Positions 1,931-31,519 of a stretch of 32,759 bases of DNA are shown piece after piece. This DNA is from a virus, in the IMG/VR virus record IMGVR_UViG_3300010883_000008, positions 66,668 to 99,426 of that record; one strand, written 5' to 3'. The notes beneath the pieces were generated by a model, which was not told where the DNA came from, did not search any database, and saw nothing but the letters and a program-made list of their open reading frames with translations. Both the position numbers and the translations under genes were made by a program. Numbering within the stretch: the first letter of the stretch is position 1; the number at the start of each line of letters is the position of its first letter.

Positions 1931-2863
1931 TTAAACAGGTAGTCTCCAAGGGACGATCAAGTCGGCTACGTTAGTGAAATCAATTACCTCCTGCAATCCG
2001 GTCTCCAGACCAACCTTGGCCGTGAATCCCGTAGCTTTGTGGAACTTCTGGTAGTTGACCTCATAATCACGGAAGTCCGGATCTTCCCCGGTCCCCTCAG
2101 CGATCAGCTTGTAGTTGTGCAATCGTTGCACTGTTTCAGCAAGGGCCAACTTAGTCAGGTTCATCCGTTCGTCGCCCACGTTGTAGGCTTCGCCCGAACA
2201 CGTCGTGTACTGAGCTAACGCCCGCACGTAAGCATCCACGGTATCTTCAATGTGCAGGAACGTACGTCTATCTGACCCACGATACAACACGATGTACTTG
2301 TCACGAACAGCCTTCCAACAAAAGTCGTTAGGCATCAGATCGTATCTCATACACGGGGACAAGCCAAACACAGTCGCAAACCGGAGACCCACGCCTCCAT
2401 ATGAGAGTACCGATTGCTCGGCCTCGAACTTAAATTTGCCGTACTCCGATTGCGGATTGGGAGTGGTGTCCTCCGTGCAGAGATCGTCAATCTGACCGTA
2501 AACAGATCCCGTAGAAGCGTATAATAGCGGAATGTCTTGGGCGTTGTGGCATGCTCGGATAACGTTCTGCGTACCTTCAACGATTATCTTGTGAGCCTCT
2601 ACCGGTTTACGGGCACAGATCGGAAAGCCGACCAGTGAGGCTAAGTGAAAAACTGCGTCATGTCCCAGTATGGCAGAGGACAAACTTGCGTCGTCCCGAA
2701 TGTCTCCCCGAATCAGCCGTGCCCCGGCCTTCTGTAAATACAGTGCGGGAGTGACTCCGTAGTCAAACGTGTCATAGACAGTAACTTCGTCTCCCCGAGC
2801 CAAGAGTCGACGTACTAAGCAGTTACCAATGTAGCCCGCTCCGCCTGTGACGAGAATTTTCAT
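1931..2863 (-). CDS. NAD-dependent sugar-nucleotide epimerase/dehydratase (extended SDR)
   Basis: 310 residues. The N-terminus MKILVTGGAGYIG carries GxxGxxG (G7, G10, G13) for NAD binding. The catalytic pair is Y141 and K145 (SEYGKFK), with ASTGSVYG at 116-123 supplying the Ser/Thr. This matches UDP-glucose 4-epimerase and dTDP-glucose 4,6-dehydratase-like enzymes. It overlaps the upstream SDR gene by 4 nt (ATGA). A copy of the dispersed GTGCAA palindrome lies inside it at 2117-2131, encoding V-Q-R-L-H. The substrate is unknown, but the neighbouring DegT gene fits an amino-sugar route. Confidence 0.92.
   Translation of the reverse strand: MKILVTGGAGYIGNCLVRRLLARGDEVTVYDTFDYGVTPALYLQKAGARLIRGDIRDDASLSSAILGHDAVFHLASLVGFPICARKPVEAHKIIVEGTQNVIRACHNAQDIPLLYASTGSVYGQIDDLCTEDTTPNPQSEYGKFKFEAEQSVLSYGGVGLRFATVFGLSPCMRYDLMPNDFCWKAVRDKYIVLYRGSDRRTFLHIEDTVDAYVRALAQYTTCSGEAYNVGDERMNLTKLALAETVQRLHNYKLIAEGTGEDPDFRDYEVNYQKFHKATGFTAKVGLETGLQEVIDFTNVADLIVPWRLPV
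2117..2131. repeat. Dispersed palindrome copy inside a gene, 15 bp
   Basis: GTGCAATCGTTGCAC with a 3-bp centre, in the epimerase gene; coding strand GTG CAA CGA TTG CAC. Confidence 0.7.
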
Positions 2864-3549
2864 AGCAGTCCCAAGTGTTCTGGTAAATCGTAGGTGTTTC
2901 CGGTCTTCAACTCCTCAGATTCTAACAGATCGTATAGGTCTTTGGCAACCTCCCCTGGTTCGCGAAACGGCATGGGGGCGTCTGTTCGCTTAGGGTTCCC
3001 GGGAGTATTCACCAGACCTGGGTAGATGGTTACGGCTTTCCGTCCCCGAGTACTGTGGGGTCGATCCGACTCGAACTGAGCGAAGGATCGGATGTACGAT
3101 TCCAGAGCCGCCTTACTAGCCGCGTATGCCGGGAAGTTTTTAGACCCTTTGGATATGAAACTGCCCAGTGCCCCGATGCGGCAATCCTCACTAATCTTGT
3201 TGGCAAACATCAGCCGCGAAATGAGGAAGGTATGACCTAAGAAGTTGGTCATCATGTGCTGGAGCATTTGCGAGTAGGTCCACTGGTTAGGTGGGTTGCC
3301 CCGCTGGTTCATTCCCGCACAAAGCCAGATGCGACTAAACCCGTTATGATTCTCGAAGTGATCGACCACGGGAAGACAGGCTTGAGGGTGGGCAAAGTCC
3401 GCAGGATACCACCGAAAATTGGGGTGGTCTAGAGCCTTATCCATCGTGCGGGAAAGTCCCACTACCACGTTCCCAGCGTCCAAGTTCTTTTCGACCAAAG
3501 CTCGACCGATACCCGAAGACGCACCTGTAACCAAAACCCACTGCATCAT
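2860..3549 (-). CDS. Classical short-chain dehydrogenase/reductase
   Basis: 229 residues with the classical SDR pattern: TGASSGIG at 8-15 (cofactor), N102, S130, and Y142-x3-K146 (AYAASKAAL). Such enzymes reduce or oxidise carbonyl groups using NAD(P). It may act on a sugar intermediate, given the aminotransferase and epimerase just downstream. Two start codons overlap the stop of the upstream gene (ATGATG at 3549 and 3546); the first is used here. SDR members act on too many substrates to be more specific. Confidence 0.88.
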   Translation of the reverse strand: MMQWVLVTGASSGIGRALVEKNLDAGNVVVGLSRTMDKALDHPNFRWYPADFAHPQACLPVVDHFENHNGFSRIWLCAGMNQRGNPPNQWTYSQMLQHMMTNFLGHTFLISRLMFANKISEDCRIGALGSFISKGSKNFPAYAASKAALESYIRSFAQFESDRPHSTRGRKAVTIYPGLVNTPGNPKRTDAPMPFREPGEVAKDLYDLLESEELKTGNTYDLPEHLGLL

Positions 3550-4046
3550 GTGTAATCTCTTATCACTAATAGAGTTATGTGGTATTCGTTGTCACCCACT
3601 TGAACTTTAGTATTGCGGGTGATCTCCATAGCGGTTCGGATAAAGCGTTCGTCCTTGGGCTCTTTACAGATTAGAAAGATCCCCGGCTTCCGGTTGAGGC
3701 GTTGAGCATACAGACTAGCTTGCCCAACGGCCTCATAGAATTTACTGGCCCAGTCCACCTCAAAGGCGATCTCTTCCGTGACGATATCACATCGACGATT
3801 GTCGTCTCCCGTGGACACCTCAATCTTCCCGTTGAAGATCTTTGCCAAGTAGTCCCGGTAGTATGCCTCGTTCTTAGGACGGCCCCCAGTAGCACCTAAG
3901 GCGTTTTCATTCACCCTCAAGTGTACGTCCTGATCTACGTCCTGCATACTAGCCACGTGCCGAAAACGTAAAATGTACATTCCCAACAGCACTATGATAA
4001 GGAACGCTAGTACTAAAAGCAAGTGTGGATCTGGACCGTTCATCAT
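3546..4046 (-). CDS. Membrane-anchored PD-(D/E)XK nuclease-like protein
   Basis: 166 residues from ATG 4046. A TTG nine bases upstream is possible, but the ATG makes an ATGA overlap with the preceding gene. Residues 8-27 form one hydrophobic helix (HLLLVLAFLIIVLLGMYIL). The rest has the pattern RCDIVTEEIAFEVDWASK with D87, E96, D98 and K102, followed by EAVGQASLYA and RKPGIFLI. That pattern occurs in a family of small phage and bacterial proteins related to PD-(D/E)XK nucleases. A membrane-tethered nuclease inside a sugar operon is odd and could act in exclusion or DNA turnover. Nuclease activity is inferred from motif resemblance only. Confidence 0.55.
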   Translation of the reverse strand: MMNGPDPHLLLVLAFLIIVLLGMYILRFRHVASMQDVDQDVHLRVNENALGATGGRPKNEAYYRDYLAKIFNGKIEVSTGDDNRRCDIVTEEIAFEVDWASKFYEAVGQASLYAQRLNRKPGIFLICKEPKDERFIRTAMEITRNTKVQVGDNEYHITLLVIRDYT

Positions 4047-4660
4047 ATTCCCCAAACAGTAGAACTCGGGTCAGTATCTAACAAATGACGCTCAACGTTA
4101 CGAGTCACTTCGTCCTCAATATCGATGTCGTCTACTCGATACCGAAGCATTGAGAAGGTATCCCCGATCCGCTTCATCCCGTATTCTAGGTCCAAGCATT
4201 TTAGCAGCATCTTATACTGCAAGACCGCAGAATACCAAGGGCCGATCTCCGGTCGGAACAGTGCAACTGGTTGCACAAACAATACTCGGCACGCAGGTGC
4301 AAGCATCCCGAACTGCTCCAAGTATCGGTACATCATCATGGGGCCGTAAACTAGCTCGTGAGCCGCCCGACTAAAGTGCAGTTGATCCGAGAGTCGGGGG
4401 TCACTTTCCTCCGGATGGGGAGGTATAAACGTGATACTTTCCACGCGTTCTCCCGATTCCCAAAGCTCTTGGTTGTCGTTCACAACCCCTATTACGTCTG
4501 AGGCCGATCCGAAGTCTGTCCGACACCACTGGTATTTTCCGGTAGTTGTCATGTCCGTTCGAGGGACCTTACCTACCATGAAGACAGGTATCGCCTTTGA
4601 CTCCAGATAGTTAGCTACTGTGACAGCCATTCCTGGGCCACTGTTTCCGATAATATGCAT
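4043..4660 (-). CDS. Rossmann-like protein, possibly degenerate SDR
   Basis: 205 residues. It opens with MHIIGNSGPGMAVTVANYL, a glycine-rich turn after a beta strand as in nucleotide-binding Rossmann folds. The C-terminal half has WYSAVLQYKMLLKCLDLEYG, which resembles the Y-K helix of SDR enzymes, but the Tyr-Lys spacing is not the standard YxxxK. It may be a diverged SDR or a different Rossmann enzyme. It lies between an AAA-lid-like gene and the nuclease-like gene. The palindrome copy at 4261-4276 falls in it and encodes V-Q-P-V-A-L. No function is assigned. Confidence 0.45.
   Translation of the reverse strand: MHIIGNSGPGMAVTVANYLESKAIPVFMVGKVPRTDMTTTGKYQWCRTDFGSASDVIGVVNDNQELWESGERVESITFIPPHPEESDPRLSDQLHFSRAAHELVYGPMMMYRYLEQFGMLAPACRVLFVQPVALFRPEIGPWYSAVLQYKMLLKCLDLEYGMKRIGDTFSMLRYRVDDIDIEDEVTRNVERHLLDTDPSSTVWGI
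4261..4276. repeat. Dispersed palindrome copy inside a gene
   Basis: GTGCAACTGGTTGCAC in the Rossmann-like gene; coding strand GTG CAA CCA GTT GCA C. Confidence 0.8.
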
Positions 4661-4668
4661 GTGTACTC

Positions 4669-5616
4669 TTACTCAATCCAGTTGTCCAGATAAGCCCTCC
4701 GCATGTCGTCCACCGAAGTGCCTACAGTTTTAGTTAGTGCCCATGCTCGACAGTCGTCCAACACAGGCTTAATGTCCGTATAGAATTGTTCAGCTTGCCG
4801 GGGGGAGCAGAATTTCAACTCATCCCGCAGATGCAAGTACAGCTTCCAATAGGGGAACACTGAGGACGCCATGTCCCGCAGTAACCAGCCCTCACAATAG
4901 AAGGCAACTTCCCCTAACCATCGTCCTCCTCCATCCAACGATAATTTCTTGCAGGTCGCCGACATGGCTGCTGAGCCCGGTCTCGTATGGATATCGACGG
5001 ACTCATATGGCAAGAAGTCTTGAAACTTAGTAAGTGGCTTAATCTCGTTGACAAGGGGCTTCGTCTTACACCCTGAGTCGCACAGGAAATAGGGGAGAGC
5101 CAAACCAAAGCCTCCCCGGGTGTTTTTGGACATTTGCTCCGCAAGGTCAAGGGTCCACGATACATCCTCATCACCACGCACCAAATCCAGTTGAGCAAAT
5201 GCATCAACACCCTCCTTCGCAAACGCGATTAAAACTCGGGCAAAGTCGCCTTGCCCGTTGTTAGTCAATGTCGCAAAGGCTTCCCGGCGAAGTCCTGATT
5301 CACCGAGAAGCATTCCCGCATGTCCGGAATCTCGATTTTTGGGGCCTTCCGCCATCGCCCGAGTAATGTCAATCAACTGAGGTAACGTACTTAGAGGTTG
5401 CCGAAACATTTTGGCTACTTCAAAGTTAGTCCCGCAATCCTCCGCCATCCAAGTCCAGGCACGTTTTATCGCAGCCTTGGGGTCCGTCTGCCACGCAACT
5501 TTTGCGAAGTTTATAGCCCCCAGAACGTCAGATCTTCGTATGCACTTTTGTGCCGCCGAAATGCTGAGATAGTAGACATTCTTATCGGGTTCCGTAGTGA
5601 AAGGCTTTATGTCCAT
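4669..5616 (-). CDS. Protein like the C-terminal region of RarA/MgsA, without ATPase
   Basis: 315 residues. Residues about 15-65 (YYLSISAAQKCIRRSD, then AWTWMAEDCG) resemble the C-terminal clamp-loader-like domain of RarA/MgsA (SA..KS.RGSD..AA, then ..ASEDIG). The Walker A and B ATPase part is absent, so the protein is the lid/oligomerisation region standing alone. Phages use such fragments as DNA-replication accessory proteins, but here the gene is inside a sugar operon. The rest is helical and unrecognised. The assignment rests on short motif similarity and is moderate at best. Confidence 0.5.
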   Translation of the reverse strand: MDIKPFTTEPDKNVYYLSISAAQKCIRRSDVLGAINFAKVAWQTDPKAAIKRAWTWMAEDCGTNFEVAKMFRQPLSTLPQLIDITRAMAEGPKNRDSGHAGMLLGESGLRREAFATLTNNGQGDFARVLIAFAKEGVDAFAQLDLVRGDEDVSWTLDLAEQMSKNTRGGFGLALPYFLCDSGCKTKPLVNEIKPLTKFQDFLPYESVDIHTRPGSAAMSATCKKLSLDGGGRWLGEVAFYCEGWLLRDMASSVFPYWKLYLHLRDELKFCSPRQAEQFYTDIKPVLDDCRAWALTKTVGTSVDDMRRAYLDNWIE

Positions 5617-5650
5617 AGGTCAATTTTCCAGTTCAAGTAGTATAGCCGAG

Positions 5651-6070
5651 TTACTTGGAGATAGCCAGTCCTTCGCCTTCGTTCGGGACGATGATAGAGC
5701 TTTTGGCTTTCTCTTGAGCGTCGATGATTTGGTTCTCCATCGATCCCGCTCGGTGTTCCAGCAGCAATCCAGTAGTCTCCGCCAGAACTTTCTGACTGTC
5801 CAACGGGAATGACATCATCAGGGCTTGCAGGGTCGCCCTTAAGACGTGGTTGTCGTACTCTAATGAAAGGTTGTCGCTATGACAATTCATCAGTGCATTT
5901 ACGATCCACTGAGGATCAAGTTGCTTATCAGCAGTCATGCCAACTTTGAACTTACCCCGATACTTTTTCATCACGTCCAGAACCTTCATGGCCCCATCTT
6001 TGATTTCGGGTCGGTCAAAGAACGGAATATCCTCAGTCTCGTCAACTGGAGGGGAGGTGGATTCGTCCAT
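5651..6070 (-). CDS. Hypothetical protein
   Basis: 139 residues from ATG 6070, which has GAGAGA about 8 nt upstream; a TTG at 6076 is the alternative. The N-terminal 20 residues are acidic and Pro-rich (probably disordered), then a helical body ending in a Glu/Lys-rich stretch. No cysteine cluster, membrane segment or known motif was found. The start overlaps the upstream cupin gene by 29 nt. Not recognised. Confidence 0.6.
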   Translation of the reverse strand: MDESTSPPVDETEDIPFFDRPEIKDGAMKVLDVMKKYRGKFKVGMTADKQLDPQWIVNALMNCHSDNLSLEYDNHVLRATLQALMMSFPLDSQKVLAETTGLLLEHRAGSMENQIIDAQEKAKSSIIVPNEGEGLAISK

Positions 6071-6533
6071 TTTCAATCTCTCTTAGTATTTTGTGTTCCA
6101 TCTCAAGGGGTTCAAATTCGATTGGAGTGATGGGCTCCTCACAATCATCCCAACGTTTGTCAATCATAGCTACCATCGAAAGGTCCGTAAGGGCCTTCAT
6201 GGTGTGTCCTGTTCCAATGGGGAAACAGATGCAATCTCCCGGGCCGAGTATCTCAAACGGATACTGGGACTGTCGGGCCTCAACTCGCTGCAATTGAATA
6301 AGCCGAGGAACGTACTCAAAATAGACAACTTGTCCCGAAGTTACTAAGATCCATTCGACGAATTCCTTATGGTAATGGAATCCCCGCATTTCACCTTTGT
6401 TGGTTTGGATCAAGTTGAATTCTTTGATCGTACGTCCCGCCGTCTCCTTGGGTAATGCCCAAGTGAAGATTCCTCCCCGGTCATCCGCCAAAGTTCCGAG
6501 GTTGCAGAAGGGCTTAACCAGTTCCATCGACAT
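6042..6533 (-). CDS. Sugar-nucleotide cupin (RmlC/FdtA/WxcM-like)
   Basis: 163 residues. DDRGGIFTWALP followed by GEMRGFHYHKEFVEWILVTSG and GPGDCICFPIGTGHTM is the double-stranded beta-helix pattern of sugar-nucleotide isomerases and epimerases; RGFHYH is comparable to RGLHYQ in RmlC. These enzymes epimerise or isomerise dTDP-4-keto-6-deoxysugars. It lies between a Gfo/Idh oxidoreductase and the downstream sugar genes, supporting deoxysugar synthesis. ATG 6533 has AAGGA about 9 nt upstream and overlaps the preceding gene by 20 nt. Whether it does 3,5-epimerisation or 3,4-isomerisation cannot be decided. Confidence 0.8.
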   Translation of the reverse strand: MSMELVKPFCNLGTLADDRGGIFTWALPKETAGRTIKEFNLIQTNKGEMRGFHYHKEFVEWILVTSGQVVYFEYVPRLIQLQRVEARQSQYPFEILGPGDCICFPIGTGHTMKALTDLSMVAMIDKRWDDCEEPITPIEFEPLEMEHKILREIENGRIHLPSS

Positions 6534-7407
6534 CGTAGCATTCCTTTTCTAACCATGCAAAGGTCTCCATGGACCGCAACACACGGTCTATCATTAGAGG
6601 CTTTTTGCGTTCAAAGTCCGTGATAGAGTGCCCATACATTGGATGCTCGTCAGGCCCCGTAAACGGCTTGTGGTGGCTGTGGTTTGTTTTTCGGGCGGTA
6701 GCACCCATCAACGGGCGGGACCATCCGGGAGCTTGATTAGGGCCTTTTCGGGTGCCCATGTATTGAGTGCATTGCTTGAAGGTTCGGGCGTTATCCGAGA
6801 ACTCCATCTCGTACCGTAGGCCAGGGCAGTCAAAGCCTGCATGGTAGATCCGGTCGTCCTTCCAGAAATCCCGAGCCGTATACTCCAAAGGTCCCGCCAA
6901 ATGACTCCCGAGCATGACCCCGTACCAAGCTATGTCCCAAGCCATTAGTTGGGTCCCGCCGCCTAAGGGTAGGTTCATCCACGACTTAGCATAGTGGACG
7001 CCTAATCGCACAAGGGATTCTCGCCGATCCATGTAGTTCATGCACTGGCAGGATACATCTAACCTTAACCCTTTGTTCTTAGCCATAGCGACCAAGTCCT
7101 TGACCCGATGTTCCGAGGTGGAGGGGGTCTTTTCCACCAGCACATTCTTCCCCGCGTCTAGACACGAATGCACGGTCAGAAAGTGTGATCTGGTAGGCGT
7201 GCAAATGTACACGTTCTCAACGGTAGGATCGTCCAACATGGTTTCTAGTGCAACCGTTTGCACAGATTTGTGGCTACCCACATATCGACCAAGTTCCAAC
7301 TCCCCCGGCGTGCGGGAGACATAGATGGTATCTCGGTCCTTGAAGTGCCGTAGCATCTTACGTTGGGCGAAACTTCCGGTTGGTGAAATGAATCCCCACT
7401 TACTCAT
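6514..7407 (-). CDS. Gfo/Idh/MocA-family oxidoreductase
   Basis: 297 residues. NVYICTPTRSHF at 65-76 and KNVLVEKTPS at 87-96 (E92, K93, P95, the EKP motif) identify this NAD(P)-dependent sugar dehydrogenase family. The usual N-terminal GxGxxG is modified to GFISPTGSFA. Family members oxidise sugar or inositol hydroxyls, often to make 3-keto or uronic sugars for DegT aminotransferases. A palindrome copy at 7248-7263 encodes V-Q-T-V-A-L at residues 49-54. It overlaps the upstream sulfotransferase-like gene by 8 nt. Confidence 0.88.
   Translation of the reverse strand: MSKWGFISPTGSFAQRKMLRHFKDRDTIYVSRTPGELELGRYVGSHKSVQTVALETMLDDPTVENVYICTPTRSHFLTVHSCLDAGKNVLVEKTPSTSEHRVKDLVAMAKNKGLRLDVSCQCMNYMDRRESLVRLGVHYAKSWMNLPLGGGTQLMAWDIAWYGVMLGSHLAGPLEYTARDFWKDDRIYHAGFDCPGLRYEMEFSDNARTFKQCTQYMGTRKGPNQAPGWSRPLMGATARKTNHSHHKPFTGPDEHPMYGHSITDFERKKPLMIDRVLRSMETFAWLEKECYDVDGTG
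7248..7263. repeat. Dispersed palindrome copy inside a gene
   Basis: GTGCAACCGTTTGCAC in the Gfo/Idh gene; coding strand GTG CAA ACG GTT GCA C. Confidence 0.8.
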
Positions 7408-9347: not shown

Positions 9348-9536
9348 CTACGTCCGATCTTCGTGACCGGATGACCCGTCTGACGCGTCTGGGTCTGTAG
9401 CCGGTACGGGAATGACTTGTAGGAAGGTTCCGGTGATACGAAGGAATACTTCATCCCCCGTGATAGCCGCAACCTCAATTTCTAGGTTGTTGTCAATTAC
9501 GATATTTTCACTGATTTCACGTGATAAGACGAGCAT
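9348..9536 (-). CDS. csrA: CsrA-like RNA-binding regulator, divergent C-terminus
   Basis: 62 residues from ATG 9536 with GAGGG upstream. MLVLSREISENIVI...LEIEVAAITGDEVFLRI matches CsrA beta strands 1-4, including L4 and the GDEV turn. CsrA dimers bind GGA motifs near ribosome binding sites. The last strand and helix are abnormal: the usual V.R.EIY segment holding the RNA-contacting Arg (R44 in E. coli) is replaced by LQVIPVPATDPD and an acidic tail. It may therefore bind weakly or differently. Hairpins with T-runs flank the gene, suggesting a monocistronic message. Confidence 0.85.
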   Translation of the reverse strand: MLVLSREISENIVIDNNLEIEVAAITGDEVFLRITGTFLQVIPVPATDPDASDGSSGHEDRT

Positions 9537-9625: not shown

Positions 9626-10042
9626 TTATGCAGTCGGAGCCGTTGCGTCGGTTGCCGTAGCACTTGTCGGAGCCGGTTCTTCGGTAGATGCAGCATCAAG
9701 CAATTGCGACCACTTACGGGAGGCAGCTTTGTGCTGTTTGCGGAGTTCTTTCACGTCAGCAGTCGAGCTATCGCGAAGGAGCTTTCGAGCAGCGTTCAGG
9801 GACTCTTGGGACATAGTGACAGCCGCTTTGGTCTTGGTGACCAGTTCGCCGCGTCGTGCCGCGATCTTCCCGTCGAGTTCGGACTGGAGCGAGGCTAGAT
9901 GACCGCGAATTTCTTCGGCGGAAGGCATCTCAGGAGCAGGTGCCGCAGCACAGGCTTCCGTGTCATCACAACATGTGACAATAGGTTCGGAACTTTCCGT
10001 AGCTGCTACGGCGGGGGCTGAGGGAGTAGAAACAGTGTTCAT
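9626..10042 (-). CDS. Ala/Glu/Lys-rich coiled-coil protein
   Basis: 138 residues from ATG 10042, preceded by a strong GGAGGA site. The N-terminal 45 residues and the C-terminal 20 are Ala/Pro/Thr-rich and likely disordered. Residues 45-115 are charged and helical (EEIRGHLASLQSELDGK, then RKLLRDSSTADVKELRKQHK), a coiled-coil pattern. No catalytic motif. Own promoter, strong ribosome binding site and terminator suggest high expression, as for a structural or scaffolding-type protein. Function unknown. Confidence 0.75.
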   Translation of the reverse strand: MNTVSTPSAPAVAATESSEPIVTCCDDTEACAAAPAPEMPSAEEIRGHLASLQSELDGKIAARRGELVTKTKAAVTMSQESLNAARKLLRDSSTADVKELRKQHKAASRKWSQLLDAASTEEPAPTSATATDATAPTA

Positions 10043-10072: not shown

Positions 10073-10088
10073 GTGCAATCGATTGCAC
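10073..10088. repeat. Dispersed palindrome copy, perfect 16 bp
   Basis: GTGCAATCGATTGCAC is a perfect inverted repeat. It lies in the leader between the predicted promoter at 10116-10144 and the start codon at 10042. Candidate operator or RNA stem. Confidence 0.85.
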
Positions 10089-10115: not shown

Positions 10116-10144
10116 AATATAGCATCAAACGACCAAGCGGGCAA
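10116..10144 (-). promoter_or_regulatory. Predicted sigma-70 promoter for the Ala-rich protein gene
   Basis: Minus strand TTGCCC, 17-bp spacer, TATATT, with TG one base before the -10 (extended -10). It overlaps the 3' end of the alpha-CTD-like gene. The -35 is weak, so the extended -10 carries most of the support. Confidence 0.5.
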
Positions 10145-10457
10145 GTTCTTCTTTGGACAAATCCGTTTCGTCCTTTGGGTTGTCATCCCGGAAGACTACC
10201 TCGTGGTCAGCGGGGATCTTCCATTCCGTTCGTCGGGGAACGCTGAAACCACACATACGTAAGGCTTCATACAAAGTAACCATAGCCCTCTCCCCGAATC
10301 CAAACCTTGAGAAGAGTTCTTCTCGCCGCCAAGACAGCAGGTCAGAGACCGTCTGAATGTTGGCCTTAGCCAGAACATTCATAGTCCGTACAGTGACTCC
10401 GTATATTTCTAGGGATGCGATATCCTTATCCATCCAGGCTAGTGTTCGTGGATTCAT
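10125..10457 (-). CDS. RNA polymerase alpha C-terminal domain-like protein
   Basis: 110 residues. Residues 14-73 (ASLEIYGVTVRTMNVLAKAN, then IQTVSDLLSWRREELF, then GFGERAMVTLYEAL) follow the helix-hairpin-helix pattern of the bacterial RNA polymerase alpha-CTD. R24 and N27 match the DNA-binding R265 and N268 of E. coli alpha, and G55 matches G296; K298 is Arg here. The alpha N-terminal domain is absent, so this is a free domain with an acidic C-terminal tail. It could bind UP-element DNA or activators and redirect host transcription. The start overlaps the stop of the upstream gene (TAATG). Confidence 0.75.
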   Translation of the reverse strand: MNPRTLAWMDKDIASLEIYGVTVRTMNVLAKANIQTVSDLLSWRREELFSRFGFGERAMVTLYEALRMCGFSVPRRTEWKIPADHEVVFRDDNPKDETDLSKEELARLVV

Positions 10458-10853: not shown

Positions 10854-10883
10854 TATATAGTGCAATTGGTTGCACTGTGTTAA
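10854..10883 (-). promoter_or_regulatory. Candidate promoter with a palindromic operator in its spacer
   Basis: Minus strand TTAACA, 18 bp, TATATA. The spacer contains the whole 16-bp palindrome at 10860-10875. A protein bound there would block RNA polymerase. The -10 matches the consensus only partly. Confidence 0.4.
10860..10875. repeat. Dispersed palindrome copy, 16 bp
   Basis: GTGCAATTGGTTGCAC; intergenic, between a -35-like and a -10-like element, 57 bp upstream of the small membrane protein start. Confidence 0.85.
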
Positions 10884-12406: not shown

Positions 12407-12754
12407 TTAAACTAGCTCACAAATTAGGGCCGTGCCTCGATTGTTTTGACGCACGACTCGTAGCCGCGTGACCGTCAGATTTTCCGTACTCCCACCGTTT
12501 TGAGCAATAAGCTCGTCTTGGGCGTGAGGTAGGATCAAGCATTTCAAACCTCGACTCGATTCCATCAGGAACCAGCCGGTAGCTTCATCATCGATCAGAG
12601 CATTGGCGAACATGATTCGCTTAGGGCCTTGTCCGATGTCCGGCTTGTTGTCAAGGAATATCGACACAGGTTCCTTTGAGAAGGATTCAAGAATAGTCCC
12701 CGCCGAAGGTTTCTGGTCTAGTAGTGATTTGAAGTCGTTTGGTGCATCAGTCAT
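12407..12754 (-). CDS. Hypothetical protein
   Basis: 115 residues with alternating beta strands in the second half (RIMFANALI, GWFLMESS, LKCLILP, TVTRLRVV, TALICELV), suggesting a small beta barrel or sandwich. No motif recognised. Overlaps the upstream DUF6165-like gene by 8 nt. Confidence 0.65.
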   Translation of the reverse strand: MTDAPNDFKSLLDQKPSAGTILESFSKEPVSIFLDNKPDIGQGPKRIMFANALIDDEATGWFLMESSRGLKCLILPHAQDELIAQNGGSTENLTVTRLRVVRQNNRGTALICELV

Positions 12755-17497: not shown

Positions 17498-17526
17498 ACT
17501 ATAGCTTAGGAGGAAGTACCTGTCAA
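17498..17526 (-). promoter_or_regulatory. Sigma-70 promoter for the membrane/peptidase unit
   Basis: Minus strand TTGACA, 17-bp spacer, TATAGT, at the very end of the 17506-18369 gene. Drives genes from 17448 downward. Confidence 0.75.
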
Positions 17527-20983: not shown

Positions 20984-20986
20984 GAA

Positions 20987-21586
20987 CTACGCTCCAAGTG
21001 GGGGTTTAACGAACAAAGCCATACTTTGGGAAGGTTCCCAATTCCAATCCCTGCGTATCATCGGGGTCAAGGTAGTACCTGTAGCCAATTCAAACACTTG
21101 TGGGATCGTATAACTGCCGGGAGTCTTTCGAGCCGACTCTTTTATTTGACGGTATACTACGTAGATCCGTCCTCCGGGAGCCAACACTTTATCCGCCGCA
21201 CGTAGAAAGTAATTAGCTTGAGATAGTTTCAGGCTTGGTAGAAGCATGAATGCCCAAATGTAGTGGTACGGCCCTGGATCAAACGTGAACTGACTATCCA
21301 CCAATACCGAAGGTTGTTTCTCCAAGCAGAGTTCGGTGGATAACTCTTGATCCATCCCCGCTTCCACAAGTTCTTGACTGTTATCGAATCCGTGGTAGTT
21401 TCCCATGTTCAAATACGGGATGACTTTACGACCCAAACGAAAGGCTCCACAGCCCACATCTAGTAGACGATGGTTAGGTTGTAAGCCTTCCTGTAATAGG
21501 TAGGAGAATTGAGCTTGTCCCAAAGGTTCCCAACTATCGTGGCCCCGAGGACCTCCAATGTGTTTCTTGTAGTCGAATTCCGCCAT
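20987..21586 (-). CDS. Class I SAM-dependent methyltransferase
   Basis: 199 residues. HRLLDVGCGAFRLGRKVIPYL is motif I for S-adenosylmethionine binding, YHGFDNS follows as motif II, and LAPGGRIYVVY as the post-motif. The target may be a sugar hydroxyl or carboxyl, because it sits between sugar genes. Its start overlaps the HAD gene stop by one base. Confidence 0.82.
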   Translation of the reverse strand: MAEFDYKKHIGGPRGHDSWEPLGQAQFSYLLQEGLQPNHRLLDVGCGAFRLGRKVIPYLNMGNYHGFDNSQELVEAGMDQELSTELCLEKQPSVLVDSQFTFDPGPYHYIWAFMLLPSLKLSQANYFLRAADKVLAPGGRIYVVYRQIKESARKTPGSYTIPQVFELATGTTLTPMIRRDWNWEPSQSMALFVKPPLGA

Positions 21587-21915
21587 TATTCTAATTCCTC
21601 AATTCTCATTGATCGGTCGTCAATCAGCACGTCAAAGGGAGGCTTATTCCCCAGGTCCAGTCGATGATACTTGACCCCCCAATCCTGCAACTGAGATTCC
21701 GTAATAGTAAGGAGTCGAACTACGCGACGTTGGTTTGCGGGGGTCCCCGAACCTCGTGCTGTATACATGACGATGGTATGACCTTCGTCAAACAGCTTGT
21801 TGATTTTGGCAATCTGGTCGTACCGGGGAGTCGCGTTTTCGTAGTCGACTCCCACTGTGGTACAGATTGTATTATCGATGTCTACGTAATAGACGGAAGG
21901 TACAGGCATCTTCAT
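21586..21915 (-). CDS. HAD-superfamily phosphatase, capsule-biosynthesis type
   Basis: 109 residues. VYYVDIDNTICTT (D12, D14, T16) is HAD motif I, IVMYTARGS (T51 region) motif II, and KPPFDVLIDDRS motif IV. Small capless HAD enzymes of this kind occur in capsule and sugar clusters. Beside NeuB it could dephosphorylate a sugar-phosphate intermediate such as a nonulosonate-9-phosphate, which is inference only. ATG overlaps the upstream stop by one base. Confidence 0.8.
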   Translation of the reverse strand: MKMPVPSVYYVDIDNTICTTVGVDYENATPRYDQIAKINKLFDEGHTIVMYTARGSGTPANQRRVVRLLTITESQLQDWGVKYHRLDLGNKPPFDVLIDDRSMRIEELE

Positions 21916-22532
21916 CAGAGTACTCTACAGGTTAAGAAGGATTCGACGTTTTCTCGCCACCCCCCCATATCGTCTATTGGAGGACGGTCGGCACCTGAGG
22001 GCCAAAAGCCCCGAATATCATTGCGGCGTTTAGTATAGTCGAATCCCCGCTCCACGGTCTCCGCTCCTGAAAACAAAGATTCCAAGCATTTCGGGGAGAA
22101 TCTCCAATAGTCCATGGGGCAGGGGTGGTATCTCCAAGACCAAGGAACTACGGTAAAGATGTATCCTCCAGGCTTGGTGATCCGTTGAATCTGTTCGGCA
22201 CAGATCCAAGGCCGTTCTACATGCTCCAAGACATCAATTGAGATAACTACGTCGAAGGTGTTATCTGGGATCGTACATTCATGCAGATCTTGAATGTAAA
22301 TGTTGTCAGGCGACATTTCGGGAAAGGCCTTCTTTACCCGATTGATATTCAGATCTAATACTGAATACTGGGTCCCCGTAGGAACCAGCTTCCATGAAGC
22401 CTCCCGAGTTATCGGAGATTTCGTCGCCCCGATCTCCAACACGGAGGAGTTACTTGCCATCAATTTATACAGGCGTTGTAGGGCCTTACGCCATTGTCGA
22501 GGCTGTACTTCGGGAAGAGATTTAATTGCCAC
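21915..22532 (-). CDS. SAM-dependent methyltransferase (Methyltransf_11-like)
   Basis: 205 residues. SSVLEIGATKSPITREA is the SAM-binding region, QYSVLDLN the second motif, FDVVISIDVLEHVERPW and KPGGYIFTVVPW the later ones. This is the form common in O-antigen and glycan clusters. The C-terminal 40 residues are Pro/Gly/Trp-rich. It overlaps the NeuA-like gene by 11 nt. The target is unknown. Confidence 0.82.
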   Translation of the reverse strand: MAIKSLPEVQPRQWRKALQRLYKLMASNSSVLEIGATKSPITREASWKLVPTGTQYSVLDLNINRVKKAFPEMSPDNIYIQDLHECTIPDNTFDVVISIDVLEHVERPWICAEQIQRITKPGGYIFTVVPWSWRYHPCPMDYWRFSPKCLESLFSGAETVERGFDYTKRRNDIRGFWPSGADRPPIDDMGGWRENVESFLTCRVL

Positions 22533-23190
22533 GGTAAAGACGCTCCATTAGTTGGGCTTGTACTAGGTCCGCAGGTTCATCGATCTCAAGTCGGGGAGAC
22601 TCCGAGATGTGAAGTCCCGTCCTCCCGCAAAAGCGATTCTGAGTTTCAAGGAACAGCTTACGGCGGAATGCATAGACTGATCCGGTTTCCAAATACTTCG
22701 CAGGATACCGGTGACGTTGTACTCGCATAACATCTTCGTTATGTGTGATACCTTTACCCCCCGCTCCCCATATGAATCCATGGAAGGGGGCGACGGCTAA
22801 GGCCGAGTCGTATTCTCCCGACTGTACAAGAGCCGCAGTTCCCCGAATATCCTCCGCTGTAACGAAGGGGGAAGTGCATTGCACGAAGGCGACTACAGAA
22901 CAGTCTGAGGGCCAGAAATGTTCGATAGCGTAGACTAAAGATCCCTCACTCGGGGAATTATCCGTAGTTAGCCTTTCAGGAAGATTAATTATCCTTGCAC
23001 CGTAGGCCAAGGCTTCTTCTTTGATCGTAGGGCAATCCGTTGCGACTACACAAGGAGAATCAAGGAACGCCTCCTTAGCCGCAAGGACTGAACGTGCAAT
23101 CAGCGAGGTATTCCCCACCAGTTGCACATTCTTCATCGGGACGCCTTTAGACCCCCCGCGAGCCGGTATGATAACGTAGGCTTTGTCCAT
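22522..23190 (-). CDS. neuA: CMP-nonulosonate (acylneuraminate) cytidylyltransferase
   Basis: 222 residues from ATG 23190, chosen because GGAG precedes it and it makes a TAATG overlap; longer starts lack support. It activates sialic-type acids with CTP. The signature YVIIPARGGSKGVPMKNV at 5-22 holds the CTP-binding loop (R11, G12, S14, K15, N21). SLIARSVLAA, VATDCPTIKE and FVQCTSPFVTAEDI are typical of the family. It supplies the CMP donor for the GT29-like genes. Specificity (Neu5Ac, Leg5Ac7Ac or others) is unresolved. Confidence 0.88.
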   Translation of the reverse strand: MDKAYVIIPARGGSKGVPMKNVQLVGNTSLIARSVLAAKEAFLDSPCVVATDCPTIKEEALAYGARIINLPERLTTDNSPSEGSLVYAIEHFWPSDCSVVAFVQCTSPFVTAEDIRGTAALVQSGEYDSALAVAPFHGFIWGAGGKGITHNEDVMRVQRHRYPAKYLETGSVYAFRRKLFLETQNRFCGRTGLHISESPRLEIDEPADLVQAQLMERLYRGN

Positions 23191-23849
23191 TAGTCCCAAT
23201 CTCCGGGAGAGTGAAAGAAGCAATCCTTGCCAATGACGTAGCCAAGTTGTTCTACTTGATCCGTAATAGCCTGTTGGGACACGCCCTCCCGACCATGGAT
23301 CTCTACTGTAAGATTCGGGTGACAGTTCTCAAGCATTTGTAATGCTCCCGAGATCACGCGGTTTTCCGCACCCTCCACATCCAGATCCATCCAAGTGACC
23401 TCAGTGAAATTCAGGTCATCTAGTGTTGTGGTTAATGTAGTTCCTCCGGTATCCAACTTACATCCGCCCGATCCATAATTGCGGGGAGCCTCATGCACCG
23501 ATACCCGGTCTCCCGACGAGTCCCACAAAGCTCCGTTTATAGCTGTCACGTTAGTGATGTTGTTAGTCCGTAGATTATGTACTAGTAACGCGTATAGCTT
23601 AGGATCGGCCTCAAAGGTCGTCACATGGGCGACAACTTGCGATAGCCAAATGGGTGAGCTTCCGTAAAATCCTCCCGCGAATATCACATGAGACTCGGGG
23701 GTCAACCACTTGTGAGTGGCCCATTTCAGAAGGCGTACCTCCCAAGGGTCCCCGTGACTCATGGTGGCGAGAATGTCACAGTCCGCGTAGCCTCGGATTG
23801 TGGCATCTTTCCCATACGTTCGGATGACGGCATCCCGGAACATGCTCAA
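23190..23849 (-). CDS. FkbM-family methyltransferase
   Basis: 219 residues. HVIFAGGFYGSSPIWLS, VTTFEADPKLYALLVHNL, NVTAINGAL and WMDLDVEGAENRVISGALQML match FkbM proteins, in which the DxEGxE segment is diagnostic. FkbM enzymes O-methylate sugars and polyketides. It is the first glycan gene of the module and overlaps the NeuA-like start by one base. Confidence 0.83.
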   Translation of the reverse strand: MSMFRDAVIRTYGKDATIRGYADCDILATMSHGDPWEVRLLKWATHKWLTPESHVIFAGGFYGSSPIWLSQVVAHVTTFEADPKLYALLVHNLRTNNITNVTAINGALWDSSGDRVSVHEAPRNYGSGGCKLDTGGTTLTTTLDDLNFTEVTWMDLDVEGAENRVISGALQMLENCHPNLTVEIHGREGVSQQAITDQVEQLGYVIGKDCFFHSPGDWD

Positions 23850-24458: not shown

Positions 24459-24487
24459 ATTATAGCCACTCTCGGAAGTATTGTCAA
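24459..24487 (-). promoter_or_regulatory. Perfect consensus sigma-70 promoter
   Basis: Minus strand TTGACA, 17-bp spacer, TATAAT, all 12 hexamer bases matching. The -35 contains the TGA stop of the gene ending at 24484. The expected start point (about 24452) coincides with the ATG of the HTH gene. Confidence 0.85.
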
Positions 24488-25107
24488 ACCGGTTCCGGCC
24501 AAATCTCAGCTACCCCCGGTTTTACGTTAGGCCAAGTCTCTTGATAGAGCAAACCTCCCTGCAATCCTACAAGACGGCTGCGATGAAAATAGTGCAATGC
24601 GTCCCAATCCATCCACCAAGGAATCTCATGCTCGAATTTCGTAAGGTACTCCGGGGGATCGAGGGGGATCAGTCCTGTACCATCCGCACGCTTAACATCA
24701 GGCCAAAGTCTGAGTATCCAAGCATTCAAGAAATCATCATGACCTTTGAACATACGGAGAGCCGGATGATCCCTTCGCCAGCCCATAGCTATCGATGCGG
24801 GATACGGGGAGATCTCCTTCTGAATTATGGTCAGCGTCCGATACAGTTGACATTTTTCTTGTATCTGGAGACCATCATGAATGAGTCCTATGTGTTGTTC
24901 TGTGATGTAGGGTAACAGGCGGTTCTGGGAAATGAACTCGTATGCCCCCGAATTACCGTCTCCCCGCCACATCTCCTTACCGTTATCCCCGTCAAACACG
25001 ATGCATTCCTGACGTATGCCATGGGACGGACGCTTCTTTTTCGACCGTCTGAATCGCATAGTCATTCGACCGTGGTCAAATTCCTCAACGTAATCAACTA
25101 AATCCAT
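24484..25107 (-). CDS. Possible pyrimidine-dimer glycosylase/MSMEG_6728-like protein
   Basis: 207 residues from ATG 25107. ITEQHIGLIHDGLQIQEKCQ, then YRTLTIIQKE, GWRRDHPALRMFKGHDDFL and WPDVKRADG resembles the pattern LD..RL.KQR.E...IL, then GW..HPA..MW.G...AL seen in MSMEG_6728-type proteins annotated as pyrimidine-dimer glycosylases. The similarity is by eye only. A TTG start at 25161 would include the palindrome (25109-25125) in the protein. With the ATG, no ribosome binding site is seen because the palindrome occupies that place. Confidence 0.45.
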   Translation of the reverse strand: MDLVDYVEEFDHGRMTMRFRRSKKKRPSHGIRQECIVFDGDNGKEMWRGDGNSGAYEFISQNRLLPYITEQHIGLIHDGLQIQEKCQLYRTLTIIQKEISPYPASIAMGWRRDHPALRMFKGHDDFLNAWILRLWPDVKRADGTGLIPLDPPEYLTKFEHEIPWWMDWDALHYFHRSRLVGLQGGLLYQETWPNVKPGVAEIWPEPV

Positions 25108-25108: not shown

Positions 25109-25125
25109 GTGCAACCCGATTGCAC
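25109..25125. repeat. Dispersed palindrome copy, 17 bp
   Basis: GTGCAACCCGATTGCAC with a 5-bp centre. Lies 4 bp after the stop of the DUF3268 gene and 1 bp before ATG 25107, where a ribosome binding site would be expected. Confidence 0.85.
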
Positions 25126-25129: not shown

Positions 25130-25528
25130 TTAAACGAAACCCAGTTCCCGTAACTTGTCAAAGTTCATGTGCATGGCTAGTTTACAGACTTGCATGCAGG
25201 TATCGTAGTTAAACTTCCCAATGTGGCAGTCCCGTTCGGACAGACCCAATTCGTCTGCCAGCCACGTGTATGCGGCCTTACGAGCCTTTCCGCGTTTTTT
25301 ACGCGACCCGTTGTTCCAAATTTTATCGAAGACTTCGTGGGCTGATGCCCGTGCCCGTCGCGTTAACCTGTCCGCAGGTTTCCCCATGGGTTCCTTGCTT
25401 CGTTGGTGGCAGCTATGCCGAATATCGCATCCTTGAGTCGGACAGAGGTAACGCCAGCCGAACTTTGGTGTCAGTACCAACTGCATAGGTATTTGGCAGT
25501 CTGGACACATCAATAGGAGGCGTCCCAT
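25130..25528 (-). CDS. DUF3268-family zinc-finger protein
   Basis: 132 residues. CPDC at the start and YLCPTQGCDIRHSCHQRS give the zinc-binding Cys/His set. KEPMGKPADRLTRRARASAH, then FDKIW, KAAYTWLADELGL and CHIGKFNYDTCMQV follow the DUF3268 pattern closely. The role of this family is unknown; the zinc ribbon plus basic helices suggests nucleic-acid binding. An intrinsic terminator lies upstream. Confidence 0.8.
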   Translation of the reverse strand: MGRLLLMCPDCQIPMQLVLTPKFGWRYLCPTQGCDIRHSCHQRSKEPMGKPADRLTRRARASAHEVFDKIWNNGSRKKRGKARKAAYTWLADELGLSERDCHIGKFNYDTCMQVCKLAMHMNFDKLRELGFV

Positions 25529-26700: not shown

Positions 26701-27417
26701 TTAGGACTTGAGACGTTTTGCCAGGGCCTTGATCAGTTCCGGTCGACTCATGCGAGTGTACCCCGGAAGTTTAACCACCTTAGCCATGGTCTTGAGTGCC
26801 GAAGTGGTAAGCTCGTCATTTACTGACGATTTCTTAGCCACACGTTTGGTAGATTTCTTCGCGGCAACCTTTTTCTTGGTCACTTTCTTTTTGGTGGCCT
26901 TTTTCTTGGCCCGTTTGACCACCGCATCGGCCTTCTTTTTCACCGCCGCGATTTTCTTCTTTTCCGCCACCTTATTAGCCGCAGCCTTTTTCTTAAGCAC
27001 TTTCGTGGTAGCTTTTGCCGCCGCGACTTCTTTAGTAGTGTACTCGGTCGTTTTACCGTCGTACGCGGCCTTATAGTCTGCCTTGGTGATAACGCACTTT
27101 TTGGCAAGTACGCAAGTCCCCGTGACTCCCCCGTGAGAATCCGGACCAGACATGGTCACGTCTGCGGGGTCGACCAGCACTCGGAGAAGGACCTTACCAC
27201 CCGAGGTAAGTCGTAGACCGGGCTTGGTCACAAAGAGGTAGAATCCTGCGTGGGAGTCCGTCATTTTGGCTTCGAGTGTCCCAGGCCGCCAAACGAAGTA
27301 GAAAGTCGGGGAGACTAATTGATGATCTTTTCGTACCACCCACTTGTACGCATAGAAAGGCTGTCGGGGTAAGATAGCCTTGGTCGTTTGTGGGTCGTGC
27401 TTATATGACAAGCACAT
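26701..27417 (-). CDS. Lys-rich, histone H1-like protein with SAP-like C-terminus
   Basis: 238 residues with GGAGGA before ATG 27417. Residues 1-125 are a beta-rich globular part (FYAYKWVVRK, SPTFYFVWRPGTLEAKM, GFYLFVTKPG). Residues 130-200 are Lys/Ala repeats (KKKATKKKVTKKKVAAKK) like H1 and bacterial HU/Hc1 tails. The end, LPGYTRMSRPELIKALAKRL, resembles a SAP or Rho-N DNA-binding motif. Together this suggests a DNA-coating or nucleoid protein. The globular part is not recognised. Confidence 0.7.
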   Translation of the reverse strand: MCLSYKHDPQTTKAILPRQPFYAYKWVVRKDHQLVSPTFYFVWRPGTLEAKMTDSHAGFYLFVTKPGLRLTSGGKVLLRVLVDPADVTMSGPDSHGGVTGTCVLAKKCVITKADYKAAYDGKTTEYTTKEVAAAKATTKVLKKKAAANKVAEKKKIAAVKKKADAVVKRAKKKATKKKVTKKKVAAKKSTKRVAKKSSVNDELTTSALKTMAKVVKLPGYTRMSRPELIKALAKRLKS

Positions 27418-28948: not shown

Positions 28949-29332
28949 CTACATATTATGGCGACGTTGTTGGGTCTCTTTAACCGTCAACAAAGTGAAG
29001 GGCTTTTGGATGATAGGTGTGTAGGGCTGAATCATCCCTAAAGCATCGACCCGATAGGTCTCCTTGCCCAAGCGTAGAGCTTGCTGTAGTTCGGCCCATA
29101 CTCCCGAGCCCCAACTGAGGTCTGAATAGTGCATCGCTACTACGAGGTCACAGGTAGGTATTACAGCCTCCAAGAAGTAGTCCATTCCCGACTCAGCGTA
29201 TTGGACTTGATGTTCGCCCTCTTCGGGGTCAATTATGTGGGCACCTTCCCATCGATGCTCTATAGCCCATCGGGGGCGACGTTTCTTCTCAAAAGGTAGG
29301 GGTACGGGATGGGCAAAATATATTTGGAGCAT
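28949..29332 (-). CDS. Nucleoside 2-deoxyribosyltransferase-like protein
   Basis: 127 residues. LQIYFAHPV at the start, MDYFLEAVIPTCDLVVAMHY and SWGSGVWAELQQALRLGK at about 70-95 follow the pattern of the nucleoside deoxyribosyltransferase/DUF4406 superfamily (YFA.P, then CD.VVA, then GSGVW.E...A...GK). It may salvage or alter nucleotides. No ribosome binding site is seen because the palindrome at 29340-29355 lies 8 bp before the ATG. Confidence 0.62.
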   Translation of the reverse strand: MLQIYFAHPVPLPFEKKRRPRWAIEHRWEGAHIIDPEEGEHQVQYAESGMDYFLEAVIPTCDLVVAMHYSDLSWGSGVWAELQQALRLGKETYRVDALGMIQPYTPIIQKPFTLLTVKETQQRRHNM

Positions 29333-29339: not shown

Positions 29340-29355
29340 GTGCAATTGATTGCAC
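29340..29355. repeat. Dispersed palindrome copy, 16 bp
   Basis: GTGCAATTGATTGCAC. It begins 3 bp after the stop of the sulfotransferase gene (29359) and ends 7 bp before ATG 29332, directly followed by TAGAAT on the minus strand. Confidence 0.85.
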
Positions 29356-29358: not shown

Positions 29359-29973
29359 CTAAAACTGAAAGTTGAATTTCTCGATGATAGGAAGGTTCAG
29401 GTTATATACCCGCTCAATCTCGCGGGGGCTACGAAACCAGTCTTGTCGATGTTGCTTACGTCGACCCGCCTTGTCATGAATTAGATCAGGCAGATCCACA
29501 CCCAACCTCGTACTGAGAGATTTGAGGTCTTCTGTTAAGTTATCAAATCTTATATACGTGTCCGCATAGGGTAACCCTGAAAGGAAGGTGTACGGAAGGT
29601 TGGAGTATTTTAGACAGATGCTACGGAGAGCTTTGGGAGATTTTTGAGTACCCGGTTTCCCAGTGTCTTTGGACAGAAACCAGAAATACAGAGACACACA
29701 AACGTCCCAAGGGTTCCTAACGAGGGTAAACTTGTGGTAAGATTTCCAGGCTTGCGGGAACCATCGCTTTATGTGGTAAGCCGTAGCGTGAGGGGGGCAG
29801 CCTGATATGTAACCTACTGAAGGTAGCTGAAGGGGTCCCGTAGGTCGGTACAGACGAAGAGACGTAGCTACATCGCGAGGGCCTAAGATTTGCCGCAATG
29901 CGAACTCAATCGAGGACGAGGCGACCTTTTTAGGTCGGATAAAGATAAACCGGTGCTTATGTGATATGATCAA
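29359..29973 (-). CDS. Sulfotransferase-family protein
   Basis: 204 residues from TTG 29973 with AAGG upstream. A GTG at 30033 would put the coding start through a terminator-like hairpin, so I reject it. ISHKHRFIFIRPKKVASSSIEFAL resembles the PAPS-binding region (PK.ASSS), and YHKFTLVRNPWDVCVSLYFWF is the classical R.P...S. motif. Sulfation of a surface sugar is the likely role. A promoter (30045-30073) and hairpin (29985-30020) upstream suggest attenuation. Confidence 0.72.
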   Translation of the reverse strand: MIISHKHRFIFIRPKKVASSSIEFALRQILGPRDVATSLRLYRPTGPLQLPSVGYISGCPPHATAYHIKRWFPQAWKSYHKFTLVRNPWDVCVSLYFWFLSKDTGKPGTQKSPKALRSICLKYSNLPYTFLSGLPYADTYIRFDNLTEDLKSLSTRLGVDLPDLIHDKAGRRKQHRQDWFRSPREIERVYNLNLPIIEKFNFQF

Positions 29974-29984
29974 AATTCCAACCT

Positions 29985-30020
29985 TAAAAATCCCCCGACA
30001 GTCCGAGAACTGCCCGGGGG
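29985..30020 (-). terminator. Terminator-like hairpin between promoter and sulfotransferase (attenuator?)
   Basis: Minus strand CCCCCGGGCAGT, loop TCTCGG, ACTGTCGGGGG, followed by ATTTTT. The stem starts about 18 nt after the expected start point of the promoter at 30045-30073, so most transcripts could end here. Confidence 0.75.
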
Positions 30021-30044
30021 AGAAACCCACCAAGGTTAGCCCTT

Positions 30045-30263: not shown

Positions 30264-30545
30264 TTAGTGTACTCCGTCAAGTTTTAGAGCGTACTCAAGA
30301 AGGACTTTGGTTACTAACGTGTTCAGGGACACTTCCTGATCCCTAGCGGCGATCACGAGCGATTCTTTGAGGTGTTTCGGGATGCGGGGAGTAATCATCG
30401 CATGATCTTTGGGGATGAAACTTTTACGTTTCTTCACAGAGGGAGCGGGTGGTGGTGGTGTGATTCCCATCTCTTGCGTTAAAGGGTCCGTCTTATTGGC
30501 GTTAAGTACTTTGGTGATAGCTCCGAAGGTTTTGTCGAAAGCCAT
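30264..30545 (-). CDS. Ribbon-helix-helix (Arc/HicB-like) DNA-binding protein
   Basis: 93 residues. The N-terminal half is Pro/Lys-rich. PRIPKHLKESLVIAARDQEV, then SLNTLVTKVLLEYAL at about 53-86 matches the RHH fold (beta strand, helix, helix, with SLN at the turn). RHH dimers bind short palindromic operators. AAAGGAGA precedes the ATG. Two dyads lie just upstream: TTACCCGGGGGTAA (30558-30571) and the dispersed palindrome (30576-30592). It is the best candidate in the window for the protein that reads those sites, with autoregulation likely. This link is inferred. Confidence 0.7.
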   Translation of the reverse strand: MAFDKTFGAITKVLNANKTDPLTQEMGITPPPPAPSVKKRKSFIPKDHAMITPRIPKHLKESLVIAARDQEVSLNTLVTKVLLEYALKLDGVH

Positions 30546-30557
30546 GGTGTTCTCCTT

Positions 30558-30571: not shown

Positions 30572-30575
30572 ATTT

Positions 30576-30592
30576 GTGCAATCGAGTTGCAC
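30576..30592. repeat. Dispersed palindrome copy, 17 bp
   Basis: GTGCAATCGAGTTGCAC with a 5-bp centre. It overlaps the last base of the stop codon of the 30592-30855 gene and lies 30 bp upstream of the RHH gene start. Confidence 0.85.
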
Positions 30593-30855: not shown

Positions 30856-30901
30856 GTTGGACTTTCTGAGCGTAAGCACGCGAGGTTAAGGAATGGAACT
30901 T

Positions 30902-30915
30902 TTACCCCCGGGTAA
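30902..30915. promoter_or_regulatory. Dyad TTACCCCCGGGTAA (operator candidate, copy 2)
   Basis: Exact reverse complement of copy 1; includes the stop codon of the 30902-31246 gene and lies about 47 bp upstream of ATG 30855. Confidence 0.6.
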
Positions 30916-31246: not shown

Positions 31247-31268
31247 GGTTATGTGTCCTTAGTTGGCC

Positions 31269-31481
31269 TTAGGATTTGATTAGTCGAGTAGCTTTGACCG
31301 CAGACCAATCGAAGGATAGTCCACTTACCCAGTTGCAGGGACATAGCCATACTTCCCCCGCAGCATCCCGACCTACCGAAGCCAGAGACGATCCCCCGCT
31401 GTTCCAGTAGATCTTGTATAGACCCGAAGGTAGCTTATCCCGGCCCCCTGTAGTGTAGGGTACTTTCACGTGTTTAGCCAT
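31269..31481 (-). CDS. Small beta-rich hypothetical protein
   Basis: 70 residues, GGGAGA 7 nt before ATG 31481. Short strands (GLYKIYWNSGG, EVWLCPCNWV, FDWSAVKATRLI) suggest a small beta domain. C-x-C at about 47-49. Function unknown. The palindrome at 31503-31519 lies 21 bp before its start. Confidence 0.68.
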   Translation of the reverse strand: MAKHVKVPYTTGGRDKLPSGLYKIYWNSGGSSLASVGRDAAGEVWLCPCNWVSGLSFDWSAVKATRLIKS

Positions 31482-31502
31482 TAGATTCTCCCGATTTTGC
31501 TA

Positions 31503-31519
31503 GTGCAATTGGGTTGCAT
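31503..31519. repeat. Dispersed palindrome copy, 17 bp, one end mismatch
   Basis: GTGCAATTGGGTTGCAT; the last base differs from consensus, and there the site overlaps the TAA stop of the small membrane protein gene. Confidence 0.8.

Follow-up and report, generated by a model that had tools for sequence, protein, structure and literature searches.

Evenly spaced palindromes and the phrog_17202 protein in distantly related phages point to an unreported genome-wide control or organisation system

Several described systems rely on a short DNA site that is present in many copies or on proteins that load at such a site. The stoperators of Cluster A mycobacteriophages (L5/Bxb1) number about 20-30 dispersed sites, most of which are not in promoters; they occur as phage-specific variants and are bound by a phage regulator (PMC6550527). 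The Cluster O mycobacteriophage Corndog carries 34 invariant copies of a 17-bp palindrome, TGTTCGG-N3-CCGAACA, with 14 copies in intergenic DNA and the others inside or at the start of genes. These palindromes have no clear orientation, no lysogens were recovered, and their function is unknown (PMC4351075). The KorB operators of plasmid RK2 are likewise palindromic, are scattered over an extrachromosomal element and mediate long-range repression (PMC11790492). ParT of plasmid SCP2, a DNA-binding protein with no CTPase domain, forms a CTP-independent ParB-like clamp that loads at an 18-bp inverted repeat (PMC12260392).

The stretch analysed here, referred to as the window, comprises 32,759 nucleotides and corresponds to positions 66668-99426, the terminal part, of a 99,426-bp virus record in which 138 of the 141 genes in our gene call lie on the minus strand. 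An earlier note on this DNA, made from the sequence alone, had listed 12 copies of the palindrome GTGCAA-N3..5-TTGCAC and considered them far beyond chance. Eleven copies were found to be exact at the listed places, and the spacers were as claimed: eight copies have 4 bp, three have 5 bp and one has 3 bp. The twelfth copy, at 31503-31519, reads GTGCAATTGGGTTGCAT; it has the 5-bp spacer TTGGG, and its single mismatch is the last base of the right half-site (TTGCAT). The half-sites are nearly invariant in this phage, with a YYRR-like centre, and about half of the sites lie in short gaps ahead of the next start codon, the remainder being within genes. The palindromes carry no strand assignment; all the genes named below are on the minus strand. 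Genic copies are GTGCAA-TCG-TTGCAC (2117-2131) in an epimerase-like gene (1931-2863), GTGCAA-CTGG-TTGCAC (4261-4276) in gene 4043-4660, GTGCAA-CCGT-TTGCAC (7248-7263) in an oxidoreductase gene (6514-7407), GTGCAA-ACGA-TTGCAC (13046-13061) in gene 12747-13274, GTGCAA-CCGA-TTGCAC (15585-15600) in ORF 15331-15729, which our gene caller did not retain, and GTGCAA-TCAG-TTGCAC (17958-17973) in gene 17506-18369. Outside genes, GTGCAA-TCGA-TTGCAC (10073-10088) occupies the gap separating genes 9626-10042 and 10125-10382, GTGCAA-TTGG-TTGCAC (10860-10875) is intergenic and upstream of a small gene ending at 10681, GTGCAA-CCCGA-TTGCAC (25109-25125; 5-bp spacer) lies in the short interval separating gene 24484-25107 from gene 25130-25387, and GTGCAA-TTGA-TTGCAC (29340-29355) in that separating gene 28949-29332 from gene 29359-30033. 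The copy GTGCAA-TCGAG-TTGCAC (30576-30592; 5-bp spacer) is upstream of a HicB-like RHH gene (30264-30545), and the one-mismatch copy is upstream of gene 31269-31481.

Shuffling bore out the claim that these numbers exceed chance. Against the 11 exact copies in the window, 100 dinucleotide-preserving shuffles contained none, and codon-preserving shuffles, in which protein and codon usage were kept within called genes, gave a mean of 0.09 and a maximum of 2. The rest of the genome also carries the motif: the whole record holds 23 exact copies, to which one-mismatch copies add three or four, compared with a mean of 0.23 and a maximum of 1 in codon-preserving shuffles. A reversed control pattern had no copies across the 99,426-bp record, and spacer lengths other than N3..5 showed no excess.

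The motif is not peculiar to this phage. As the earlier note had proposed, the complete genome, related phages and host DNA were scanned, and the motif was found throughout the phage group and in chance numbers in the host chromosomes checked. A scan of IMG/VR yielded many contigs with repeated copies, and named relatives were reached by protein searches that started from the capsid gene and from genes of the replication module. The core proteins of the IMG/VR relatives mostly share about 20-35% identity with those of the window phage. A palindrome search that presupposed no motif led to the same core in most relatives, and the window palindrome is one form of a conserved family of 14-16-bp palindromes with the core TGCAA-N4-TTGCA. 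With a symmetric weight matrix, 16-84 sites were counted per phage genome, compared with about 0.2-1.2 in Markov shuffles; Vibrio phages SIO-2 and HC, which had seemed motif-free at first look, proved to have degenerate sites by a palindromic weight matrix. The carriers are distantly related, mostly unidirectional phages of 70-110 kb that infect Vibrio, Rhizobium, Rhodobacter, Aeromonas, Stenotrophomonas, Agrobacterium and Pseudomonas, together with a Rhizobium phage-plasmid. Flanks and centre are phage-specific, as in GTGCAATCGATTGCAC, TTTGCAACCGGTTGCAAA in HJ05, TGCAACNNGTTGCA in L338C and plasmid p7, TGCAAACGTTTGCA in Agrobacterium JP1 and TGCAARCGYTTGCA in Pseudomonas PaMx31. An unrelated 31-kb prophage with three sites (G015) was excluded from the comparison. 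In three bacterial genomes that have such a phage among their contigs (4.8, 6.4 and 4.5 Mb), 1, 4 and 2 sites lay outside the phage contig, compared with 1, 6 and 4 for the controls. A literature search for the motif strings found nothing relevant.

Half-site changes were one-sided at 202 sites and complementary on both sides at 24, which favours a DNA site over an RNA stem. Genic copies occupy all three reading frames, with a preference for the frame free of Cys and stop codons; a protein motif was therefore rejected as their cause, and such frame use is expected if the DNA itself is selected. We regard it as highly improbable that the palindromes act as RNA hairpins, GUGCAA-YYRR-UUGCAC, for example to mark points of processing or termination in transcripts or to be bound by the phage CsrA homologues. 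Such hairpins would suit genomes with nearly all genes on one strand and two encoded CsrA homologues, and sites are indeed oriented in some phages, the central CA:TG ratio being 173:105 overall, 36:2 in fragment G001, 3:13 in HJ05 and balanced in other phages. However, changes in one arm mostly go uncompensated in the other, the conservation is one of sequence beyond mere pairing, and several sites lie upstream of the -35 box. CsrA, moreover, needs GGA in the loop, and the loop here is without it.

The candidate binder is phrog_17202, a PHROG of unknown function whose members are annotated elsewhere as hypothetical or 'ribonuclease E/G family'. In the window record it is gene 25 (G000:14228-15235), outside the window and adjoining recombination/replication genes; in most relatives its gene comes after ruvC in the recombination module. 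DLP05_067 of DLP5 and gp66 of RcZahn are members of the family. Of the complete genomes examined, all that bear the motif also have this family. Three relatives with the capsid or RecA protein in common, PBP180, LuckySocke and Kumao, showed neither the motif nor a phrog_17202 match, as judged by profile for the first two and by non-appearance in tblastn hit lists for Kumao. The motif occurs without phrog_17202 in two fragments, G001, which is without nearly the whole replication module, and G007, which retains RecA, DnaB and RuvC. A site lies at most 200 bp upstream of the phrog_17202 gene in 14 of 19 genomes, as against 18% of all genes, and this is the highest upstream-site share of the 19 conserved families tested. 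All seven further records had an upstream site, one of them with one mismatch, bringing the combined count to 21 of 26 genomes (about 1e-11 by a binomial that ignores relatedness). In the window phage, G005, SIO-2 and HC the gene has no site directly ahead of it, and by our gene call G046 has none either. The core is predicted as a compact domain (pLDDT 90, pTM 0.80) of six helices, including an HTH-like pair with a conserved RKAxY, and the protein is probably DNA-binding. Searched against the PDB, neither the full-length model (pLDDT 71) nor that of the core (pLDDT 90) had a significant match, Raf1 and P1 ParB being the only weak ones, and no ParB_N (CTPase) domain was detected by Pfam. The occurrence of 'RKAR' in phages with TGCAAC..GTTGCA is suggestive, with HJ05 breaking the pattern.

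It is quite unlikely, in our assessment, that the sites are bound by another phage protein, or by a conserved host factor, for which phrog_17202 is merely the most consistent target. In its favour, motif divergence follows phrog_17202 no more closely than it follows RecA or capsid, and coevolution of motif and protein does not exceed what phylogeny gives; an AAA ATPase family, present in each of the 16 genomes that were compared first, also has upstream sites, in 12 of 20; and G007 has sites although phrog_17202 is missing. Against a host factor, which we rejected as binder, stand the chance numbers in the host chromosomes checked and a host range spanning Vibrio to Rhizobium and Stenotrophomonas. 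The ParB_N, RHH and alpha-CTD-like phage proteins are not universal. Two suggested by the earlier note were dropped as not conserved in the phage group: the HicB-like RHH protein of the window is in no other genome compared, and the alpha-CTD-like protein is in fewer than six. ParB_N proteins were rejected too: many members have one, but none turned up in G023 or either Vibrio phage, their architectures are mixed, and an upstream site is present in only 3 of 15 cases.

Across the 16 compared genomes, 318 of 572 sites (about 55%) are intergenic, in phages where non-coding DNA mostly makes up about 10% of the genome. Intervals are more even than under uniform placement in most genomes (CV 0.4-0.7; range 0.40-0.69), the exceptions being G021 and G023. 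At a minority of sites, the end of the palindrome is followed after about 9 bp by a TTGACA/TTTACA-N17-TAnnnT promoter, at a fixed distance and on the coding strand only, with the palindrome centre about 52 bp upstream of the predicted start; in sum, TAnnnT is found at +46..50 for 44 sites, compared with about 12 expected. Most intergenic sites are without a recognisable promoter at this distance.

We lean, with some reserve, towards reading the palindromes as dispersed operators of an autoregulated phrog_17202 protein that regulates transcription genome-wide, in a stoperator-like or KorB-like manner. A phrog_17202 dimer, or two subunits, would sit on the two TGCAA half-sites, TGCAATYRATTGCA being the putative target, at some 20-80 sites placed one per 1-4 kb along a genome with genes running nearly all one way. 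A site just upstream of a sigma-70 promoter would act as an operator, whereas a promoterless site may serve as an elongation roadblock or silencer, as stoperators do, or as a loading site for a spreading repressor, as with KorB. Binding of phrog_17202 to the sites, regulation of transcription and its direction are what we infer.

The life styles of the carriers bear on this reading. Stenotrophomonas phage DLP5 is kept as a phagemid in its lysogens (PMC5834331) and DLP3 forms lysogens (PMC7326821), whereas nothing indicates lysogeny in RcZahn (PMC8601537). On a 109-kb plasmid of Rhizobium bangladeshense the replication and recombination module recurs together with 62 sites at no more than one mismatch, and so the plasmid looks like a phage-plasmid of this type. 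In a Hyphomicrobium MAG, a unidirectional phage block with 23 sites is embedded in a contig that has chromosomal genes; when the ends of this prophage were sought, no repeat of the tRNA-Pro sequence turned up. Given RcZahn, it is unlikely that the protein acts purely as a lysogenic repressor throughout the group, and the system is not simply a lysogenic immunity device.

Dispersed operators are the most economical reading; the main rival gives the same protein a part in genome architecture or partition. Here phrog_17202, or a ParB-like protein, would load at even sites and organise, condense, bridge or partition the genome, in the manner of Noc, MatP, KorB or ParT, and autoregulation would be a by-product. 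We consider this possible but doubtful. The spacing is clearly more even than random, many sites are inside genes or distant from promoters, some members are extrachromosomal phage-plasmids, ParB_N proteins occur in many members, and ParT shows that CTP-independent clamps exist (PMC12260392). However, RcZahn appears virulent yet retains the system, the ParB_N proteins are neither universal nor uniform in architecture, a subset of sites has fixed promoter geometry, and the structure search returned no significant ParB match. Among the alternatives raised in the earlier note, partition and silencing are both possible, and packaging gains no specific support. A further proposal, which we put forward speculatively and judge unlikely, is that phrog_17202, an HTH protein without the ParB CTPase domain, loads at the near-even palindromes, spreads or bridges, and sets both how the genome is transcribed and what physical state it takes, in phage-plasmids as well as virulent phages of many proteobacterial hosts, which would constitute a previously unrecognised class of phage genome-organising system.

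Taken together, an evenly spaced palindrome and phrog_17202 in distantly related phages point to an unreported genome-wide control or organisation system. One control element would unite poorly annotated phages of the Vibrio SIO-2/HC type, Rhizobium L338C and TM16, Rhodobacter RcZahn and RcTiptonus, Stenotrophomonas DLP5, Pseudomonas Samunavirus, Agrobacterium JP1 and Aeromonas HJ05, and an uncharacterised protein family gains a named, testable role as candidate binder. As tractable systems, these phages could help to explain the presence of dispersed palindromes by the tens in some phage genomes, a puzzle posed already by the Cluster O mycobacteriophages, and the control of transcription in genomes with genes nearly all in one direction.

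The likeness to stoperators drawn in the earlier note holds in part. The sites are many and phage-specific, lie mostly outside promoters with an intergenic bias, and in most genomes include one upstream of the candidate regulator gene; dispersed copies (22-84 in most genomes here) with a promoter-linked minority are again reminiscent of stoperators. In contrast, a stoperator is an asymmetric site of 13 bp, whereas the sites here are palindromes of 14-16 bp. Relative to transcription, stoperators mostly point one way; the sites here are strongly oriented only in some phages. The repressor identity and roadblock function proven for stoperators compare with a predicted binder here. Cluster O shares the tens of palindromes at intergenic and genic places, but differs in sequence and spacer from the TGCAA-N4-TTGCA consensus; phrog_17202 has no match in any Mycobacterium record, and the present motif extends over a much broader phage group and comes with a candidate protein. 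KorB has a ParB CTPase domain, which Pfam does not detect in phrog_17202, and a ParB/KorB type of system is further set apart by the ParB_N protein not being in all members here. ParT acts at a mapped parS site with a ParA partner, as opposed to tens of dispersed sites, and the analysis showed no link in sequence or fold between it and phrog_17202. The system departs in one tested defining feature each from stoperators (asymmetry), Cluster O (sequence) and KorB (the CTPase domain), while it plausibly works like them.

The phrog_17202 domain, the candidate binder of the dispersed palindromic sites, occurs as two or three paralogues per genome in six of the compared genomes (G021, G023, G035, G040, G046 and G048), where the main copy is followed a few genes downstream by a short paralogue (~170-180 aa). 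A further paralogue lies in a second block (229-264 kb) of the 309,581-bp Hyphomicrobium MAG contig (stretches L223-L238), which carries 6 sites and a tyrosine-integrase-like gene at 264295-265476 and may be a split prophage or a second one. On contig 4 of G048 (115348-115644, + strand; stretch L228), a short XRE-type HTH gene adjoins an acetyltransferase-like gene; this HTH gene is conserved across several such phages (G040, G035, Rhodobacter phage RcZahn, Rhizobium phage TM16 and G046). In the motif-bearing fragment G007 (L162-L164), coding density was just 0.73 when genes were called with the standard code, which might reflect a reassigned stop codon or many missed genes.

Within the window, nonulosonic-acid/sugar pathway genes (DegT aminotransferase, epimerase, oxidoreductase, NeuB synthase and cytidylyltransferase) occupy 766-7407 and 17506-23849 and, together with neighbouring glycosyltransferase- and sulfotransferase-like genes, suggest glycan modification by the phage. 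The window also encodes a papain-family cysteine peptidase (15739-16518, - strand; weak Peptidase_C1 match) and, at 26701-27417 (- strand), a product with a Lys/Ala-rich, histone-H1-like stretch and a weak C-terminal Rho_N match, possibly a DNA-compacting protein. Two CsrA homologues (Pfam CsrA), both on the - strand, were identified in the phage, at window 9348-9536 and at 6096-6278 of the whole record (G000); several relatives likewise carry CsrA-like genes (family of G001_59).
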